The notes under the pieces: generated by a model
What the model was told of the DNA's origin: nothing
Database searches by the model: none
The model's input: the letters and a program-made list of their open reading frames with translations, nothing else
Part shown: piece after piece, positions 88-57,836 of the stretch
How the letters are laid out: each line of letters begins with the position of its first letter
Position numbering within the stretch: the stretch's first letter is position 1
Made by a program: the position numbers and the translations under genes
Origin: an uncultured Burkholderiales bacterium
GTDB lineage: Bacteria; Pseudomonadota; Gammaproteobacteria; Burkholderiales; Burkholderiaceae_C
Direction of reading: 5' to 3'
Length of the DNA stretch: 57,836 nucleotides
Assembly: GCA_937873395.1 (NCBI GenBank)
Contig: CALMYH010000149.1
Span: 1 to 57,836, forward strand

Positions 88-393
88 TTACCAGCTGGCT
101 TTGGTGACGCCGGGGATTTCGCCGGCCATGGCCATCTCGCGCACCTTGCTGCGAGCCAGACCAAACTGGGCGAAGGTGCCACGCGGACGGCCGGTGATCT
201 CGCAGCGGTTGCGCTGGCGGGTCGGGTTGGCGTTGCGGGGCAGCTTCTGCAGGGCCAGACGGGCTGCATCGCGCGCTTCGTCGCTCTGCTTGGCATCGTT
301 GGCGGTCGACTTCAGCTCGTTGTATTTCTTGGCGAACTTGGCGGCGAGTTTCTCGCGCTTGAGTTCACGTTGGAGTAGTGCTTGTTTAGCCAC
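88..393 (-). CDS. rpsN: 30S ribosomal protein S14
   Basis: The gene encodes 101 residues, the normal length for the long, zinc-free S14. The protein opens with [14 protein letters not shown] and contains the conserved C-terminal segment [11 protein letters not shown]. The start is GTG (bases 391-393), giving the family's usual (M)AKQALL beginning. The frame stays open to 447, but that extension would overlap rplE and has no family counterpart. It follows rplE by 8 bp and precedes rpsH. S14 is a late-assembling protein of the small-subunit head. Confidence 0.95.
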
Positions 394-401
394 ACGCCAC
401 C

Positions 402-947
402 TCAGTTCTTGAACGGGAAACGGAAACCAGCCAGCAGAGCCTTGCACTCTTCGTCGCTCTTGGCGGTTGTCGTGATGCTGATGTTGAGGCCACGCAGGGC
501 ATCGACCTTGTCGTACTCGATCTCGGGGAAGATGATCTGTTCCTTGACACCGATGTTGTAGTTGCCACGGCCATCGAAGGACTTGCCCGAGATACCGCGG
601 AAGTCGCGCACGCGCGGCAGGGCCACGGTGACGAAGCGGTCCAGGAATTCATACATGCGGGCGCCACGCAGGGTGACCATGCAGCCGATGGGCTGCTGCT
701 CGCGGATCTTGAAGCCCGCAATGGCCTTCTTGGCCTTGGTCACCACCGGCTTCTGGCCGGCAATCTTGGTCAGGTCGCCGACGGCGTTGTCCATCACCTT
801 CTTGTCGGCCACGGCCTCGCTCACACCCATGTTCAGGGTGATCTTGGTGATGCGGGGCACCTCCATGGGCGACTTGTAGCCGAACTTCTTGGTCAGCTCG
901 GGAGCGACCTTGTCGCGGTAGATTTCTTGAAAGCGTGCCATGGTCAT
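402..947 (-). CDS. rplE: 50S ribosomal protein L5
   Basis: The gene encodes about 180 residues, matching L5 (179 in E. coli). Conserved blocks are visible, including [32 protein letters not shown] and [17 protein letters not shown]5 binds 5S rRNA and the P-site tRNA region of the large subunit. The ATG ending at 947 overlaps the rplX stop in an ATGA arrangement; a second ATG two codons in (ending at 941, giving MARFQEIY) fits the family start equally well. An AAGGTGG sequence just upstream could serve either start. Confidence 0.95.
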
Positions 948-3522: not shown

Positions 3523-5256
<1,734 letters not shown>

Positions 5257-6478: not shown

Positions 6479-6540
6479 GGACCCCCTTCGCGCGTTCGCG
6501 CTGTCCCCCCACGGGGGAGCGGTTTTTCTTGAGGCGGCTC
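6479..6540 (+). repeat. GC-rich hairpin repeat (divergent copy) between glpP and glpQ
   Basis: The gap contains CCCCC, an inner palindrome CGCGCGTTCGCGC, then CCCCCCACGGGGG and CTTGAGGCGGC. The same modular order (C-run, inner palindrome, C6-nn-G5 hairpin, CTTGGGGCGGC-like end) appears on the reverse strand of the repeats at 41240 and 57147, so I read it as a diverged member. It lies inside an operon and would form a stem in the transcript. Confidence 0.5.
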
Positions 6541-6549
6541 AGCGAAAAA

Positions 6550-15504: not shown

Positions 15505-15535
15505 GACTGCCGCCACCATTGCCGGCGGGCATCAG
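15501..15535. terminator. Hairpin between the frameshifted gene and recG
   Basis: CCGCC (15510-15514) pairs with GGCGG (15524-15528), and CTGA/TCAG at the two ends contain both stop codons. No T-run is present on either strand. Confidence 0.4.
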
Positions 15536-17742
15536 GCCTTGAGGTATTCGGCCCGGGTGCCCAGCCAACGGGTCACATGTCGGGCGGCGGCCTCCGGATG
15601 GTGGCGCAGCATATCGGCAGCGGCTTGACGCGCCCACTCGAGCAGGTGGGTGTCGGTGGCCAGGTCGGCGAAGCGCAGCAGGGAAGCACCTGACTGCCGA
15701 GCACCCAGAAACTCCCCAGGCCCGCGGATCTCCAGATCCCGGCGCGCAATCTCGAAGCCGTCATTGGTCTCGGCCATGGCCTTCAGGCGCTCCCGCGCCG
15801 TCTCTCCCAGTCGGCCTCCTTCACTGGGAGCGTACATGAGTACACAGGCCGATGCAGCCGCGCCGCGGCCCACGCGCCCGCGCAGCTGGTGCAGCTGGGA
15901 CAAGCCGAAGCGCTCGGCGTGCTCAATCACCATCAGGGACGCGTTGGGCACGTCCACGCCCACCTCGATCACCGTGGTCGAGACCAGCACCCCCATCTGA
16001 CCTCCACTGAACAAGGCCATAACGGCCTTCTTCTCGGCCACCAGCATGCGCGAGTGAAGCAGGCCGACGATGACGCCTGGAAGCAGCCCGGAGAGCTCGG
16101 CATGGGTGGCGGTCGCGTTGGACAGATCGATCGCCTCGCTCTCCTCGATCAGCGGACAGACCCAGTAGACCTGGCGGCCTTCGGCCACCTGTGCACGGAT
16201 GCGCTCGATCACCTCGTGACGGCGACTGTCGGACACCACCTTGGTCACGATGGGCGTTCTGCCCGGCGGGAGCTCGTCGATGGTCGAGACGTCCAGGTCG
16301 GCGTAGTAGCTCATGGCCAACGTGCGCGGGATCGGCGTTGCGCTCATCATCAACAAATGAGGCTCCCCCCCGTCGCTTGCGCGCTGCGCGTCACCGCTCC
16401 GCCCCTCAACGGGCAAAGCCTGTGGCCCGGCAAAGCCGGTTCCACGGCTTTCTGGACTGAGCTCCCCCTCTTCAAAGGCCGAACCCATTTTGGAGCGCAG
16501 CGCCAGCCTCTGTGCAACGCCAAAGCGGTGCTGTTCGTCGATGATGGCCAGGGCAAGGTTCTTGAACTGCACCTGGTTCTGAATGACCGCGTGCGTGCCC
16601 ACCACCAGCGCGGCCTCACCACTGGCGATGAGTGCCAGCATCTCGTTGCGCTGCTTCTTCTTCTGACTTCCGGTCAGCCAGGCGACACGTTTGCCCAGCG
16701 GTTCCAGCAGGGGCTCCAGCCAGCCGATGAGCTTGGCAAAGTGCTGCTCGGCCAGGATCTCGGTCGGCGCCATCAGGGCGCACTGCCAGCCGCTGTCGAT
16801 GGCGATGGCGGCCGCCAGTGCGGCCACCACCGTCTTGCCCGAGCCCACGTCGCCCTGCAGCAGGCGGTGCATCGGAACCGAGCGTTGCAGGTCACGCGCG
16901 ATTTCCTCGCCTACACGGCGCTGCGCCGCCGTCAAGGCGAACGGCAGTACGGCGAGCAACCGTTCGTGCAGGCCACCGGACAGGGGTTGGAGTGAGGGCG
17001 CGCGCAAGGCGTCGCGCTCAAGCTTGGCCTTCAACTGCGAGAGCTGCTGCGCCAGCAGCTCCTCCGCCTTGAGGCGCTGCCAGGCCGGGTGGCTGTGGTC
17101 TTCGAGCGAGGCCAGCGACACGTCGGGCCCCGGGTGGTGAAGGTACTCCAGCGCCTGGCGCAGCGACATGAGCGGCGCGCGAAGGCCGCGCAAGCTGTCC
17201 TGCAACGACGCCAGCACCGGCGCTGGCAAGGTCTCGCTCAGGTCGGCACGCCTGAGACCGCCCAGCACCGCCTTGCGCAGATAGGCTTGAGGCAGCTGGG
17301 CACTGCTCGGGTAGACCGGCGTCAGCGCCTCGGGCAACTGGCCCCCCGCCGCATGAAAGGCCGGGTGCATCATGGTCTTGCCCAGAAAGCCACCGCGCAA
17401 CTCGCCTCGCACACGGACGCGGGCGCCCACCGCCAAGGTCTTCTGGTGGGAAGGGTAGAAGCTGAAGAAACGCAGGGTGCAGGTGTCGCTGCCATCGTCC
17501 AGGGTCACCAGCAGCTGGCGGCGCGGGCGGTGGGTGATTTCCTGCCGGGTGACGGTGCCCTCCACCTGCACCACCTCGCCGTCTCGCGCGTCGTTCAGGG
17601 TGACGATGCGGGTCTCGTCTTCGTAGCGCAGGGGCAGGTGCAGTGCCAGATCGATGTCGCGCACCAGGCCGAGCTTGTGCATGGCTCTTTGCGGTGCAGA
17701 AAGTTCTTTGCGAGGGGCTGCGGGTGGCGCTGCGGCAGGCAT
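15532..17742 (-). CDS. recG: ATP-dependent DNA helicase RecG with in-frame repeat insertion
   Basis: RecG remodels stalled replication forks and branches Holliday junctions. The protein has 736 residues (E. coli 693). The N-terminal OB-fold wedge domain is followed by superfamily-2 helicase motifs: [39 protein letters not shown] and QLRGRVGRG. Between motifs II and III, 39 residues (16363-16479) have no helicase counterpart and derive from a GC-rich repeat. The start [14 protein letters not shown] is divergent from queA; an in-frame extension to 18303 lies antisense to queA and is rejected. CAGAAT lies 6 nt before the ATG, suggesting a leaderless message. Confidence 0.94.
16363..16479 (-). 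repeat. GC-rich repeat inserted in frame within recG
   Basis: This 117-bp block (39 codons, no stop) separates KMGS from [10 protein letters not shown], which are near-adjacent in other RecG proteins. On the minus strand it contains GGAACCGGCTTTGCCGGGCC, close to GGGACTGGCTTTGCC at 42228-42242. It ends in GACGGGGGGGAGCCT. Its translation is low-complexity (for example [18 protein letters not shown]). I interpret it as a mobile palindromic repeat tolerated in a surface loop. Confidence 0.72.
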
Positions 17743-17748
17743 GGGAGA

Positions 17749-17754
17749 ATTCTG
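17749..17754 (-). promoter_or_regulatory. -10-like hexamer for a leaderless recG mRNA
   Basis: On the minus strand CAGAAT ends 6 nt before the recG ATG and no ribosome-binding site is seen. It lies in the 67-bp divergent gap with queA. Confidence 0.35.
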
Positions 17755-17809
17755 CCTGTATTTCCATCCATACCCACTTGGAACGGGTCCCGTCCGGCCC
17801 TCAAGCAGC

Positions 17810-18916
17810 ATGACTTCTACCGATACCTCCGCGGCGCGCAGCTTCACCGTCGCCGACTTCGATTTCACCCTCCCCGAATCGCTGATCGCCCAGCACCCGG
17901 CCGCCGAACGCAGCGCCTCGCGCCTGCTCGACGGCACCGGCGCGCAGCCGGTGGACCGCATCTTCCGAGAGCTGCCTGGCCTGCTGGAGCCGGGCGACCT
18001 GCTGGTGTTCAACGACACCGAGGTGGTCAAGGCGCGCCACTTTGGCGAGAAAGCCAGCGGCGGCAAGCTGGAGCTGCTGATCGAGCGGGTGCTGATGCCG
18101 CACGAAGCGCTGGACGGCTCCGGGCAGGAGGTCGTGGCCCACATCCGCGTGAGCAAGAAGCCCCAGCCGGGCGGCCTGCTGCACCTGGCCGGGGGGCTCA
18201 GGGGCGGCGGGTTCGACGCGGTGTTCCTGGGCCGCTGGCCCGATGAACAGGGACAGCTGTTCCGCCTGCGGCTCGAAGGACCCGCCGGCGAAGACCCGTA
18301 CACCCTGATGGCGCGCCACGGCCATGTGCCGCTGCCGCCCTACATCACGCATGTCGATGACGCCGAGGACGAGCGGCGCTACCAGACCGTGTTTGCCCGC
18401 GTGCCCGGTGCCGTGGCCGCACCGACCGCGGCGCTGCATTTCGACGAAGGCGTATTGGTGGCGCTGGACACGCGCGGCGTGCAGCGCGCCAGCGTGACGC
18501 TGCACGTGGGGGCGGGCACCTTCGCGCCCATGAAGACCGAGCGCATTGAAGAACACGTGATGCACCATGAGCGCTACGCGATACCTCCTGCGACCGTGCA
18601 GGCTATCACCGACTGCCGCGCGCGGGGCGGTCGCGTGGTGGCCGTGGGTACAACCACCGTGCGCACGCTGGAGAGCTGGGCGCGCAACGGCGAACTGCAC
18701 GGCGACACCGACATCTTCATCACACCGGGCTTCCAGTTCCAGGTGGTGGACGTCCTGATCACCAACTTCCACCTGCCCAAAAGCACGCTGATGATGCTGG
18801 TCAGCGCCTTCGCTGGGTACGAGCACGTGATGGCGCTGTACCGCCACGCGGTGGCGCAGCGTTACCGCTTCTTCAGCTACGGGGATGCGATGCTGCTGGC
18901 GCGCCGCAACGCCTGA
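17810..18916 (+). CDS. queA: S-adenosylmethionine:tRNA ribosyltransferase-isomerase
   Basis: QueA transfers the ribosyl part of SAM to preQ1-tRNA, giving epoxyqueuosine in the anticodon wobble position. The protein has 368 residues. Conserved segments include [39 protein letters not shown]-like [17 protein letters not shown], and [20 protein letters not shown] near the C-terminus. The start is the ATG that gives [19 protein letters not shown]. It is divergent from recG. Its usual partner tgt is 3.6 kb downstream, separated by the Rieske oxygenase cluster. Confidence 0.95.
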
Positions 18917-41211: not shown

Positions 41212-41239
41212 TCAAGAGCGCACAGATGATTCAAGCGCC

Positions 41240-41311
41240 GGGCCGCCCCAGGCTTGGATCGCGCCCCCTCGGGGGGCAGCGACCCGCGCAGCGGCGGAGC
41301 GTGGGGGCCAC
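41240..41311 (+). repeat. GC-rich 72-bp repeat, copy upstream of a LysR gene
   Basis: The element starts GGGCCGCCCC, carries a CCCCC-TC-GGGGGG hairpin, then CAGCGACCCGCGCAGCGG, and ends GTGGGGGCCAC. It matches the copy inside putA (57147-57218) almost base for base over the last 45 bp. It runs up to the LysR start codon, so it supplies that gene's whole immediate leader. Confidence 0.75.
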
Positions 41312-42181: not shown

Positions 42182-42225
42182 ACCATCGCCCACGCCGGAT
42201 CGCCACCCCTTGGTCCAACGCACCG

Positions 42226-42312
42226 CGGGACTGGCTTTGCCAGACCGCAAGTGCGGTCCCCCTCCCGCCAAAGGCGAGAGAGAGGGGGAAGCCGCGTCAG
42301 CGGCGCAGGGGG
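42226..42312 (+). repeat. GC-rich repeat between LysR gene and hsp20
   Basis: The element begins GGGACTGGCTTTGCCAGACC, includes CCCCCTCCCGCC and GAGAGAGGGGGAAGCCG, and ends GCGCAGGGGG. Its first part is the same as the start of the repeat inside recG (reverse orientation there). Its G-run/inner-palindrome/G-run end resembles the 72-bp elements. It fills the convergent gap and may serve as terminator. Confidence 0.6.
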
Positions 42313-42315
42313 TGC

Positions 42316-42744
42316 TTACTCGATGTTCAGGCGCTGCCCTGCCAGCGCCACCTTCTTGGGCAGTGTCAGCGTCAGCACACCGTTCTCGTACTTCGCCTTC
42401 GAGCGCTCGTTGTCGATCTCGGTGGCCAGCTGGAAACTGCGGGCCACCGCACCGTAATAACGCTCGCTGCGCAGCACCTTCTCGTCCTGCGTCTGGGTGT
42501 CCTGCTGCTTGATTTCGGCGCGCAGCGTCACCACGCTGCCTTCCACGGTGACATGGATGTCCTCCTTGGCCACACCCGGCACCTCGGCCACCACGGTGTA
42601 GGCCGACGGGGTTTCCCGCACATCGATCTTGATCTGCGAGGGCGAGGGCAGCGAATCCCCGTGCAGGGGGCGGACATAGAAACCGGGCGCGACATCCTTG
42701 AAGAAATCGTCGAACAAACCGGAGCGGGCGATCAGACTGTTCAT
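42316..42744 (-). CDS. Small heat-shock protein, Hsp20 family
   Basis: The protein has 142 residues. The alpha-crystallin domain (about residues 38-132) contains IKIDVRETPSAYTVVAEVPG, VTLRAEIKQQ and the end motif YENGVLTLTLPK. This ATP-independent chaperone holds unfolding proteins. The C-terminal I-x-I-type anchor is weak (LNIE). AGGAG precedes the ATG, and a heat-shock sigma-factor promoter and a strong leader hairpin lie upstream. Confidence 0.92.
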   Translation of the reverse strand: MNSLIARSGLFDDFFKDVAPGFYVRPLHGDSLPSPSQIKIDVRETPSAYTVVAEVPGVAKEDIHVTVEGSVVTLRAEIKQQDTQTQDEKVLRSERYYGAVARSFQLATEIDNERSKAKYENGVLTLTLPKKVALAGQRLNIE

Positions 42745-55379: not shown

Positions 55380-57836
55380 TCAGCCCTGGGCGAACAACGC
55401 CACGTTGCCGCCGGCCGCCGTGGTGTTGATGGTCAGGGTCTGCTCGGCGCAGAAGCGCAGCAGGTAGTTCGGTCCGCCCGCCTTGGGGCCGGTGCCGCTC
55501 AGGCCTTCGCCGCCGAAGGGCTGAACACCGACCACGGCGCCGATCATGTTGCGGTTGACGTAGACGTTACCGACCCGCGCTGCGGCGGCCAGTGCCTGGG
55601 CGCGGCTGTCGATGCGGGTCTGGATGCCCAGCGTCAGGCCGTAGCCCAGCGCGTTGATCTGGCGGATCACGTCCATCGGGTCGCCACGCCAGCGCACCAC
55701 CTGCAGCACCGGGCCGAAGATTTCCTGCGTCACATCGTTGATGCTATTCACCTCGAACATCTGCGGCGCGATCAGGTGGGGCATCACTGGCTTTGCCGGC
55801 GTTTCCGGCAGCAAGGCCTTGGCACTGCCGCGTAGCCGCACGATGTGCCGTTGGATGTTCTCGAACGCTTCGGTGTCGATCACCGGGCCGAGGTCCGTCG
55901 CCAACTGCGACGGATCGCCCACCACCAGCTCTTTCGCCGCGCCCTGGATCATCTCGATCACGCCGTCGGCAATGGCTTCGTGCACGCACAGCAGGCGCAG
56001 GGCCGAGCAGCGCTGGCCGGCGCTGCGGAAGGCGCTTTGCAGCACCGCGTCGGCCACCTGTTCCGGCAGGGCCGTGCTGTCGACCAGCATGGAGTTGATG
56101 CCGCCGGTCTCGGCGATCAGGGGCACGATGGGACCGTCCTTGGCCGCCAGCGCGCGCTGGATGATCTTGGCCACCTGGGTCGAGCCGGTGAACACCACGC
56201 CGGCCACGCCGGGCGCTGCGACCAGAGCCGCCCCCACCGTCTCGCCCGGGCCGTGCAGCAGCTGCAGCGCGTCTGGCGGGATGCCGGCCGCGTGCAACAG
56301 CTTCACGGCTTCCAGCGCGACCGCCGGGGTCTGCTCGGCCGGCTTGGCCAGCACCGTGTTGCCGGTGGCCAGCGCCGCCGCCACCTGGCCCATGAAGATG
56401 GCCAGCGGGAAGTTCCAGGGGCTGATGCAGACCCAGGCGCCGCGGCCTTCGAGGCGCAGCGTGTTGCTCTCGCCCGTGGGGCCGGGCAGGGTCTGCGGCG
56501 CCATCCCGCGCTCGGCTTCGTTGGCGTAATAGCGCAGGAAGTCCACCGCCTCGCGCACCTCGGACACGGCGTCGCCCCAGGTCTTGTGCGCCTCCTTCAC
56601 CAGCAGGGCGCCAAAGCGCGGCAGCGCCGTGTCGAGGGCGTCAGCCGCGAAGCGCAGCACCGCCGCGCGCTGCGCCACCGGCGTGTGGTTCCAGGCGCCG
56701 AAGGCGGCGACGGCGCGGGCCACGGCGGCGGTGGCGCCGTCTGCCTGGGCTTCGGCCACCACCGGCACGGTGCAGGCTGCGTGCGCCGCCAGCAGCTCGT
56801 CGCGCTGGGCGATCACCGCCAGGTCACGGCCGCTGCTGTTGGCGCGCGTTGGGCCATACAGATCCGGCGGCAGCGGCAGCGAGCCCGTGGGCTCCAGGCG
56901 CAGCGGCGAGATCAGCAGCTCGTCCATGCCCACCGACTCGTCGGCCAGCTGGTGCACGAAGGACGAGTTGGCGCCGTTCTCCAGCAAGCGGCGCACCAGG
57001 TAGGCCAGCAGGTCGCGGTGCGCGCCCACGGGGGCGTAGACGCGGCAGCTCACCAGCGGGTTCTTCAGCACCTCGCGGTAGATGCCTTCGCCCATGCCGT
57101 GCAGTCTCTGCAATTCGAATTGTGGAACGGCCGGGAACCCGGCGCCGGGCCGCCCCAAGCCGGGTTGTGCCCCCTTGGGGGGCAGCGACCCGCGCAGCGG
57201 TGGAGCGTGGGGGCCCACAGATCGCGATGCGAGTTGAAGAATGGCCGCGATGGTGCCGGCGTTGTGCGTGGCGAACTGCGGAAAGATCGCGTCGGGCGCG
57301 TCCAGCAGCGCCTTGGCGCAGGCCAGGTAGCTCACGTCGGTGTGGTGCTTGTGGGTGAACACCGGGTAGGCCGGCAGACCCTGTTCCTGCGCGCGCTTGA
57401 TCTCGGCGTCCCAGTACGCGCCCTTGACCAGGCGGCACATTAAGCGGATCTTGTATTGCCGGGCCAGCGTCGCGATGTGCGCGATCAGCTCGACCGCGCG
57501 GGTCTGGTAGGCCTGCATGGCCAGGCCCAGGCCCTGCCATTGTGGGCAGTGTTCGGCCACCAGCGCGGCCAGGGCCTCGAACACGTCCAGCGAGAGTTCG
57601 AGCCGATCCACCTCTTCGGCGTCGATCGTCAGGTTCAGGTTGGCCGCCGCCGCCGCGCGGCACAGCGTCCACACGCGCGGCACCAGCTCGTTCATCACGC
57701 GCTCGTGCTGCGCGTCTTCGTAGCGTGGGTGCAGGGCGCTGAGCTTGATCGAAATGCCGTCATTCTGCGCCGGATGGCGCGCCGGGTCGGCGCCCTGGGC
57801 GATGGCGGCGATGGCGTTCTCGTAGCTGGCCTGGTA
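55380..57836 (-). CDS. putA: Bifunctional proline dehydrogenase/P5C dehydrogenase PutA, 5' end missing
   Basis: PutA oxidises proline to glutamate using FAD and then NAD. The 818 codons present start within the PRODH barrel (GISIKLSALHPRYED) and run to the natural stop; the N-terminal part lies outside the window. PRODH landmarks include RLVKGAYWDAEIKRA and LQRLHGMGEG. The P5C dehydrogenase has GNTVLAKPAEQTP, VVFTGSTQVAK, AETGGINSM and the catalytic cysteine in SAGQRCSALR. Within the barrel, 35 codons (57123-57227) are a GC-rich repeat inserted in frame. Confidence 0.94.
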   Translation of the reverse strand, partial: YQASYENAIAAIAQGADPARHPAQNDGISIKLSALHPRYEDAQHERVMNELVPRVWTLCRAAAAANLNLTIDAEEVDRLELSLDVFEALAALVAEHCPQWQGLGLAMQAYQTRAVELIAHIATLARQYKIRLMCRLVKGAYWDAEIKRAQEQGLPAYPVFTHKHHTDVSYLACAKALLDAPDAIFPQFATHNAGTIAAILQLASRSVGPHAPPLRGSLPPKGAQPGLGRPGAGFPAVPQFELQRLHGMGEGIYREVLKNPLVSCRVYAPVGAHRDLLAYLVRRLLENGANSSFVHQLADESVGMDELLISPLRLEPTGSLPLPPDLYGPTRANSSGRDLAVIAQRDELLAAHAACTVPVVAEAQADGATAAVARAVAAFGAWNHTPVAQRAAVLRFAADALDTALPRFGALLVKEAHKTWGDAVSEVREAVDFLRYYANEAERGMAPQTLPGPTGESNTLRLEGRGAWVCISPWNFPLAIFMGQVAAALATGNTVLAKPAEQTPAVALEAVKLLHAAGIPPDALQLLHGPGETVGAALVAAPGVAGVVFTGSTQVAKIIQRALAAKDGPIVPLIAETGGINSMLVDSTALPEQVADAVLQSAFRSAGQRCSALRLLCVHEAIADGVIEMIQGAAKELVVGDPSQLATDLGPVIDTEAFENIQRHIVRLRGSAKALLPETPAKPVMPHLIAPQMFEVNSINDVTQEIFGPVLQVVRWRGDPMDVIRQINALGYGLTLGIQTRIDSRAQALAAAARVGNVYVNRNMIGAVVGVQPFGGEGLSGTGPKAGGPNYLLRFCAEQTLTINTTAAGGNVALFAQG
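57147..57218 (+). repeat. GC-rich 72-bp repeat inserted in frame within putA
   Basis: This copy has the same GGGCCGCCCC start, CCCCC/GGGGGG hairpin, CAGCGACCCGCGCAGCGG and GTGGGGG end as the one at 41240. Read on the putA strand it translates as GPHAPPLRGSLPPKGAQPGL, without a stop. The excess over the usual PutA sequence is about 105 bp (57123-57227), divisible by three. Confidence 0.75.

Follow-up and report, generated by a model that had tools for sequence, protein, structure and literature searches.

The 57,836-nt stretch of DNA analysed here (hereafter, the window) ends within a putA gene that carries, in frame, a copy of a multi-hairpin repeat dispersed through the source genome both inside and between genes. 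We consider it very probable that this repeat was inserted in putA and has been kept since it is in frame, poor in stop codons, and situated in a loop that tolerates it, while insertions that broke the frame or the fold were lost.

An in-frame insert in PutA

The part of putA located in the window (55383..57836, minus strand) encodes the C-terminal 818 residues, is open throughout, and matches the Pfam families Pro_dh and Aldedh. The 5′ part of the gene is found on contig C44, whose start coincides with the window end over 55 identical bases, with the frame carrying on across the junction; the N-terminal part of the protein encoded there contains the Pfam domain Pro_dh-DNA_bdg, and the frame is unbroken on both contigs. 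In the alignment to the solved PutA structure 4q72, residues 4–207 of the query correspond to residues 213–413, and residues 239–816 to residues 414–998. Residues 208–238 (window 57215–57123) are extra relative to 4q72 and fall exactly at the junction 413|414. This insert of 31 codons (57123..57215, minus strand) is situated in the loop between the segments TIAAILQLA and FELQRLHGMGE, and the whole loop equals the commonest form in relatives plus 30 residues.

Most of the insert is a single repeat copy of approximately 78 bp (57139..57216, plus strand, i.e., antisense to putA), scored at 89.5 bits by our covariance model, and the remaining 16 bp (57123–57138) are outside the modelled repeat. 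The sequence-only reading had proposed that an extra segment of PutA coincides with a repeat, that its length is a multiple of three, and that it is open in the putA frame. All three points stand, the frame being open from the window end to 55383, and the proposed length of about 35 codons is corrected by the 4q72 alignment to 30–31. The same putA contains a second copy of the element at an N-terminal site (hereafter, the N-site) beyond the window end.

The repeat in the source genome

An intergenic copy (41232..41310, plus strand; 86.2 bits) is situated between a purU-like and a LysR-like gene (gene names in the window are given by reading). Positions 41235–41309 and 57142–57215 are 89% identical over 75 bp, which confirms the earlier claim of a repeat shared by putA and positions 41240–41311, with a unit of about 78 bp in place of 72 bp. 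The intergenic copy stops 1–2 bp before the ATG of the LysR-like gene, and by reading its GGAG or GGGGG could act as the ribosome-binding sequence of that gene. A weak degenerate copy (6479..6548, minus strand; 41.3 bits) was observed between two permease-like genes.

The repeat is not a pair of copies, as had been supposed: the covariance model (E ≤ 0.001) identified 85 copies, grouped in 64 clusters, in the 3.7-Mb genome, a minimum count, as 150 of 5627 candidates were scored. Two or three copies are present in 18 of the 64 clusters, the tandem spacing being mostly about 81–93 bp. A pattern representing the 3′ half of the repeat, with up to three mismatches allowed, occurs 56 times in the genome vs. 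0 times for the reversed control. A search of the window against Rfam at gathering scores yielded no match.

The consensus derived from the alignment of 40 copies is about 78 bp long and contains 81.7% GC. Stem 1 of the predicted structure shows 43 two-sided covarying cells, compared to 13.6 in shuffled alignments (0 of 500 shuffles as high), and this number drops to 1–11 when the partner is slid out of register. The covariation support is that of stem 1, helix 3 and one pair of helix 4 having been misplaced in the structure and having failed. The two window copies fold no more stably than shuffled sequence does (z about −0.5), and covariation is therefore taken as the structural evidence.

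Repeats of other types are also found in the window. Positions 16367–16456, situated within a recG-like ORF (15532–18303, minus strand), contain a different repeat of approximately 90 bp with an open frame, 82% identical to positions 3756–3846 of contig C44. Of the two independent in-frame insertions initially proposed for the window, the one in putA is upheld, and the other probably represents this different repeat type. A third type (42220–42314), 84% identical to a place downstream of hypD on contig C93, lies immediately beyond a small heat-shock-like gene (42316–42744, minus strand) on its 3′ side.

Placement inside and between genes

Twenty-two clusters are located in frame within 20 genes, and each carrier ORF has a Pfam family, a count that is partly ensured by construction, since such clusters were detected through an open frame. 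Clusters were classified without a gene finder, using Pfam assignment of the carrier ORF and flank codon scores, for which the fetched DNA served as the training set; open frames over copies without a Pfam family were counted as spurious (this was the case for six of nine frames submitted to Pfam). The intragenic clusters are in the sense (15) or antisense (7) orientation relative to the carrier.

Based on Pfam and PDB matches, we take the carriers to be putA (two sites), an M20 peptidase, an AMP-binding synthetase, an OHCU-decarboxylase/M20 fusion, rsmG, trpE, hrpA, metX, cysI, a nitronate monooxygenase, cobO, cobQ (two sites), a topoisomerase III-like gene, xdhA, xdhB, an acyl-CoA dehydrogenase, gcvT, meaB, a uvrD-type helicase, and hypD. 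One Pfam domain spans the element in 15 of the 22 clusters. The other seven are at or between domain borders (the putA N-site, M20 peptidase, AMP-binding synthetase, the fusion, hrpA, the C-terminal site of cobQ, and xdhA), and for three of these, namely, the putA N-site, hrpA, and the cobQ C-site, an empty relative was seen. Two tandem copies are present in five intragenic clusters. In the solved structures, the inserts map to positions 191..194 of HypD, 326..331 of TrpE, and 421..434 of topoisomerase III.

Of the other 42 clusters, 14 are situated at contig ends, 23 separate codirectional genes (one of these clusters is weak), and 5 separate convergent genes, with none between divergent genes. 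No split genes were found among the 23 codirectional clusters, the 14 contig-end clusters being outside this judgement. Pfam was applied to 20 of the 23 codirectional flank pairs: 19 have differing families on the two sides, and one has a family on a single flank. Of the other pairs, two in the window were judged by reading, and xdhB/xdhA belong to different families. The early suggestion that selection filters the insertions agrees with these counts, as all 22 intragenic clusters are in frame (again, partly by construction) and none of the 20 Pfam-checked pairs represents two halves of one gene. With such a filter acting genome-wide, about a third of the clusters would therefore be translated as extensions of ordinary enzymes. 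The sense orientation is more frequent in genes than in codirectional gaps (15/22 vs. 7/22, p = 0.034), a post hoc comparison, tallied by hand with the one weak gap excluded, that carries no weight.

The PutA loop in relatives

We fetched 87 PutA loci, and in 80 of them the loop could be read by pattern. The stretch from FATHN to HGMG comprises 32 residues in 60 of these 80 rows and more than 36 residues in 13. As far as seen, PutA orthologs without the repeat do not carry the same segment. Among the 13 long loops, two (L037, L038) represent a more distant PutA type, and two (L010, L071) come from one genome. The seven rows unreadable by pattern include four short loops (L084, L085, L086, L088), one sequence that stops at the loop (L120), one long loop (L078), and one that is long and shifted (L123). 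The truncated putA on G035:C104 was left out of the comparison.

Long loops hold the repeat, its remnant, other palindromes, or unassigned sequence. The element is in the sense orientation in genome G008, opposite to the antisense copy of the window, and related sense copies are present in two uncultured betaproteobacteria (L076, L091), one of them with an internal in-frame deletion. Genome G010 retains an antisense remnant of the element. A different palindrome occupies the loop in L093 (about 2141–2228; folding z −4.5), and yet another one is found in L078 (about 2161–2181; z −2.1, with 6 of 200 shuffles equally good). The long loops of G018, G022, G004, L089, and L102 belong to the unassigned category. 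In a Brachymonas MAG (L123; coverage 1.6), the element in the loop is followed by a shifted frame; it is either a broken copy, and then evidence against loss of frame-breaking insertions, or an assembly error.

On a PutA tree of 61 rows (67 tried), with the loop left out of the alignment, the 12 long-loop rows require nine changes of loop length (8–10 in bootstraps), and well-supported branches make at least three of them unavoidable; a number as low was obtained in 17 of 500 shuffles. The poorly resolved clade of the window PutA includes G026, G029, G016, H. pseudoflava, and Hydrogenophaga NFH-34, all without the loop insert. Besides the source genome (G000), three of the 69 readable rows have the N-site filled, namely, G029, Hydrogenophaga NFH-34, and Rhodoferax lacus. 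The putA of G014 (L028) contains a scaffold gap with duplicated flanks and resumes exactly at the loop, as if the repeat had upset assembly there.

Other carrier genes in relatives

The trpE site was searched in 40 genomes, 38 of which match: the insert is present only in G000 and G029, 34 genomes are contiguous, and two could not be scored (G018, with halves on two contigs, and G060, with a distant paralog only). Of the 30 trpE loci that were read, 28 are empty. The cysI site is empty in all five matching relatives. The hrpA gene is contiguous at the insert site in G026, G024, G034, and G010; in G029 the alignment passes through the insert, with an element-like match there, and G008 is ambiguous. 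Inserts common to G000 and G029 are therefore those in trpE and the putA N-site, where the sequence was seen, and that in hrpA, by alignment.

The number of in-frame copies in cobQ differs between relatives. The N-loop contains two copies in G000, one in G024 and G010, and none in G026 and G034, and the C-loop contains one copy in G000 and G026, three in G008 (with an 84-bp period), and none in G024 and G034. The three tandem copies of G008 (L269) add about 80 residues to one loop. By reading, the outer stem arms in the coding region of the N-loops of G024 and G010 (L267 and L268) carry matched changes, GATCTTCC/GGAAGATC vs. GATTTTCC/GGAAAATC.

A DNA target preference of the mobilizing machinery could likewise account for the same loops being hit more than once, the PutA, CobQ, and similar loops being insertion hot spots and tolerance secondary. 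Such a preference would fit the filling of two PutA sites and of the CobQ loops in separate lineages. However, the PutA loop holds the element in both orientations plus unrelated palindromes, and hence one target rule hardly explains it; moreover, visual inspection of two sites, the trpE and cysI junctions, revealed no target duplication. We regard this explanation as unlikely, although it deserves some weight.

Reading frames and rates of change

At 81.7% GC, the probability that 78 bp of random sequence contain no stop in a given frame is 0.83, compared to 0.54 at the GC content of the window. Among 40 copies of the element, between 29 and 38 are open in any one of the six frames, about as composition predicts. 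The idea that the composition of the element survives translation is borne out; at that, its stop-free reading is unremarkable, and the in-frame position is what counts. Five of the six reading frames are used, according to the phase of the conserved 3′ block, which is readable in 25 of 27 intragenic copies, and the encoded peptide is not conserved among inserts.

The trpE insert has pN 0.102 and pS 0.123, vs. 0.03 and 0.266 in the trpE flank. At the cobQ C-site, the respective values are 0.141 and 0.166 in the element vs. 0.066 and 0.333 in the flank for G000–G008, and 0.039 and 0.099 vs. 0.04 and 0.294 for G000–G026. At the cobQ N-site, pN is 0.078–0.196 and pS 0.115–0.244 in the element, compared to 0.145–0.200 and 0.341–0.494 in the flank; the cobQ alignment in part pairs different tandem copies. 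Thus, the element pN exceeds the flank pN at trpE and the cobQ C-site (2 of 3 pairs, small counts), with the frame kept. Overall, change in the element is slower than that at flanking synonymous positions in all seven pairs compared, which represent three sites, most strongly in cobQ of G024–G010 (8 of 90 nt in the element vs. flank pS of 0.484).

Pure neglect does not predict this slow change, and the G000–G026 pair, where the element pN is no higher than that of the flank, likewise counts against tolerance as the whole explanation. The slow change of coding copies could result from gene conversion, separate insertions, or a nucleic-acid constraint. In the latter case, the repeat would act as an mRNA hairpin or a protein-binding DNA site, and coding copies would be doubly coded, the structure being kept and the peptide free. 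This is consistent with the covariation of stem 1, with the slow change in all seven pairs, and with the location of intergenic copies in codirectional (23) or convergent (5) but never divergent gaps. On the other hand, the window copies fold like shuffled sequence, and the rate argument, based on three sites with tandem misalignment in cobQ, may reflect conversion or separate insertions. We consider a nucleic-acid role as the explanation of the coding copies rather doubtful.

Selection on the protein itself, with inserted peptides useful for regulation, stability, or partner binding, seems very improbable. Inserts common across species splits (trpE and hrpA in G000/G029, cobQ in G000/G026/G008) and the little peptide change in cobQ of G000–G026 could be cited in its favor, but the inserts are in both orientations in 20 unrelated genes, and nonsynonymous change is unrestrained in the trpE insert and in cobQ of G000–G008. 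Tolerance combined with loss of frame-breaking insertions is a better explanation than a useful peptide, because five of the six frames are used and the peptide is not conserved. An assembly artifact or chimera at the repeat, for which one might invoke the 14 contig-end clusters (among the 42 outside the in-frame intragenic set) and the G014 gap with duplicated flanks beside the PutA loop, has a negligible chance, given that carrier genes run on in frame on either side in 22 clusters and that G029 has three of the same inserts (trpE, the putA N-site, hrpA).

Distribution of the repeat among genomes

The source genome belongs to Hydrogenophaga, a free-living genus, and the repeat was found in all 60 sampled genomes of this genus, with 1 to 79 copies each (E ≤ 1e-5; 79 candidates scored per genome). 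It is also present in 12 of 16 named genomes, e.g., Rhodoferax lacus (61 copies), Ramlibacter WS9 (41), Polaromonas jejuensis (39), H. pseudoflava (36), Achromobacter aloeverae (20), Curvibacter (12), Variovorax (5), and Castellaniella (2). The model search of named genomes yielded no copies in Ideonella, Sphaerotilus, Phyllobacterium, and Marinobacter. The repeat-bearing named genomes presumably belong to the families Comamonadaceae and Alcaligenaceae.

The intragenic load varies a lot, since the cultured H. pseudoflava has only 3 of its 36 copies placed in frame within genes that match a Pfam family; a candidate from this genome (L240) was rejected as an intragenic copy, having a stop at the edge of the element. 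Two plasmid records match the repeat. A copy on the Rhodoferax antarcticus plasmid NZ_CP019241.1 (24217–24296) is situated under a gene annotated as encoding a Fic family protein, and thus plasmid genes may also carry the repeat.

RAYT was considered as the mover, a role that our data do not support. The sole Y1_Tnp match of the source genome is on contig C106, which has no match to the repeat model, and in the 60 genomes its presence (51 genomes) is unrelated to copy number: G016 and G033 have Y1_Tnp with three copies and one copy, respectively, and G002 (99% complete) has 32 copies without it.

Comparison with known repeat families

The Beta-proteobacterial repeat element (BRE), approximately 90 bp long, has been described in Bordetella and Comamonadaceae, with some copies entirely inside coding sequences, and the accessible portion of that account contains neither in-frame analysis nor a case of one protein site hit repeatedly (Hot et al., 2011; PMC3110155). 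Judged by this published description, as far as it is accessible, the Hydrogenophaga repeat probably belongs to the BRE family. Its 78-position model and the spacing of mostly about 81–93 bp agree with the BRE unit of 75–91 bp, and head-to-tail arrays of varying copy number are typical of both (18 of 64 clusters here, and cobQ loops that differ by species). The occurrence in 12 of 16 named genomes agrees with a range covering Comamonadaceae and Alcaligenaceae. The GC content of 81.7% is outside the 63.7–78.9% given for BRE, a range published for Bordetella copies only, and at most 29 BRE copies per genome were reported vs. at least 85 here, the model used here being more sensitive. In the open PubMed Central literature, a body that leaves most subscription papers outside, we found no report of in-frame copies of the Hydrogenophaga repeat and none of repeated occupation of one PutA loop.

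Another well-known case is that of Rickettsia palindromic elements (RPE), reportedly studied by Ogata in 2000 and 2002. According to the available portions of two accounts, these elements are about 150 bp long and each encodes a conserved peptide (PMC10969869; PMC1950309). Both RPE and the Hydrogenophaga repeat are palindromic repeats that occupy intergenic sites and also occur in frame in many unrelated genes (here, 22 clusters in 20 genes). The differences are the host, the RPE unit of about 150 bp, and the conserved RPE peptide, in contrast to the use of five of six frames here.

REPs have also been found within ORFs of several species, where they were proposed to encode flexible linkers or loops and to be tolerated for this reason; in two Xanthomonas species, recB carries an REP at nearly the same position (Di Nocera et al., 2013; PMC3733652, accessible part). 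Like the Hydrogenophaga repeat, these GTAG/CGTC REPs are short palindromes in ORFs of many proteins, including UvrD/REP helicase, with double inserts in one gene, and prefer unidirectional and convergent gaps. Unlike them, the Hydrogenophaga consensus (40 copies, by reading) has no GTAG or CGTC at its end, and the repeat is longer, multi-hairpin, arranged in head-to-tail arrays, and shows no association with RAYT. It also differs from MITEs, as the consensus ends are not complementary (by reading) and no duplication was seen at trpE and cysI.

Implications

Returning to the preferred explanation, i.e., insertion followed by tolerance and loss of disruptive copies, we suggest the following scenario. 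A repeat copy, probably of the BRE family, would have inserted into putA in this lineage and stayed there provided that the net insertion amounted to whole codons. The composition of the element would seldom contain stops, and the insertion site would be a loop tolerating a flexible stretch rich in Gly, Pro, Ser, and Ala. Insertions disrupting the frame or the fold would disappear, and the copies kept might afterwards expand in tandem or erode through in-frame deletion. We infer that the carrier enzymes are functional, that their loops are exposed, and that the observed placement is due mainly to purifying selection and not to target choice. More tentatively, certain loops of housekeeping enzymes in Burkholderiales may serve as recurrent landing pads for palindromes, whose gain, tandem copy change, and decay in frame would provide a general and ongoing way of elongating loops, coding copies possibly being constrained as hairpins with the peptide incidental.

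In-frame palindromes, best known from Rickettsia, are thereby extended to Hydrogenophaga, with 22 clusters in one 3.7-Mb genome. PutA, CobQ, and TrpE, which have zero to three copies in relatives, form a natural series for the study of tolerance to loop insertions. For annotators, lineage-specific loops of about 25 to 80 residues in these bacteria may be repeat DNA and call for caution. More generally, our observations suggest that repeat DNA can persist in genes when it is translated without breaking the protein.
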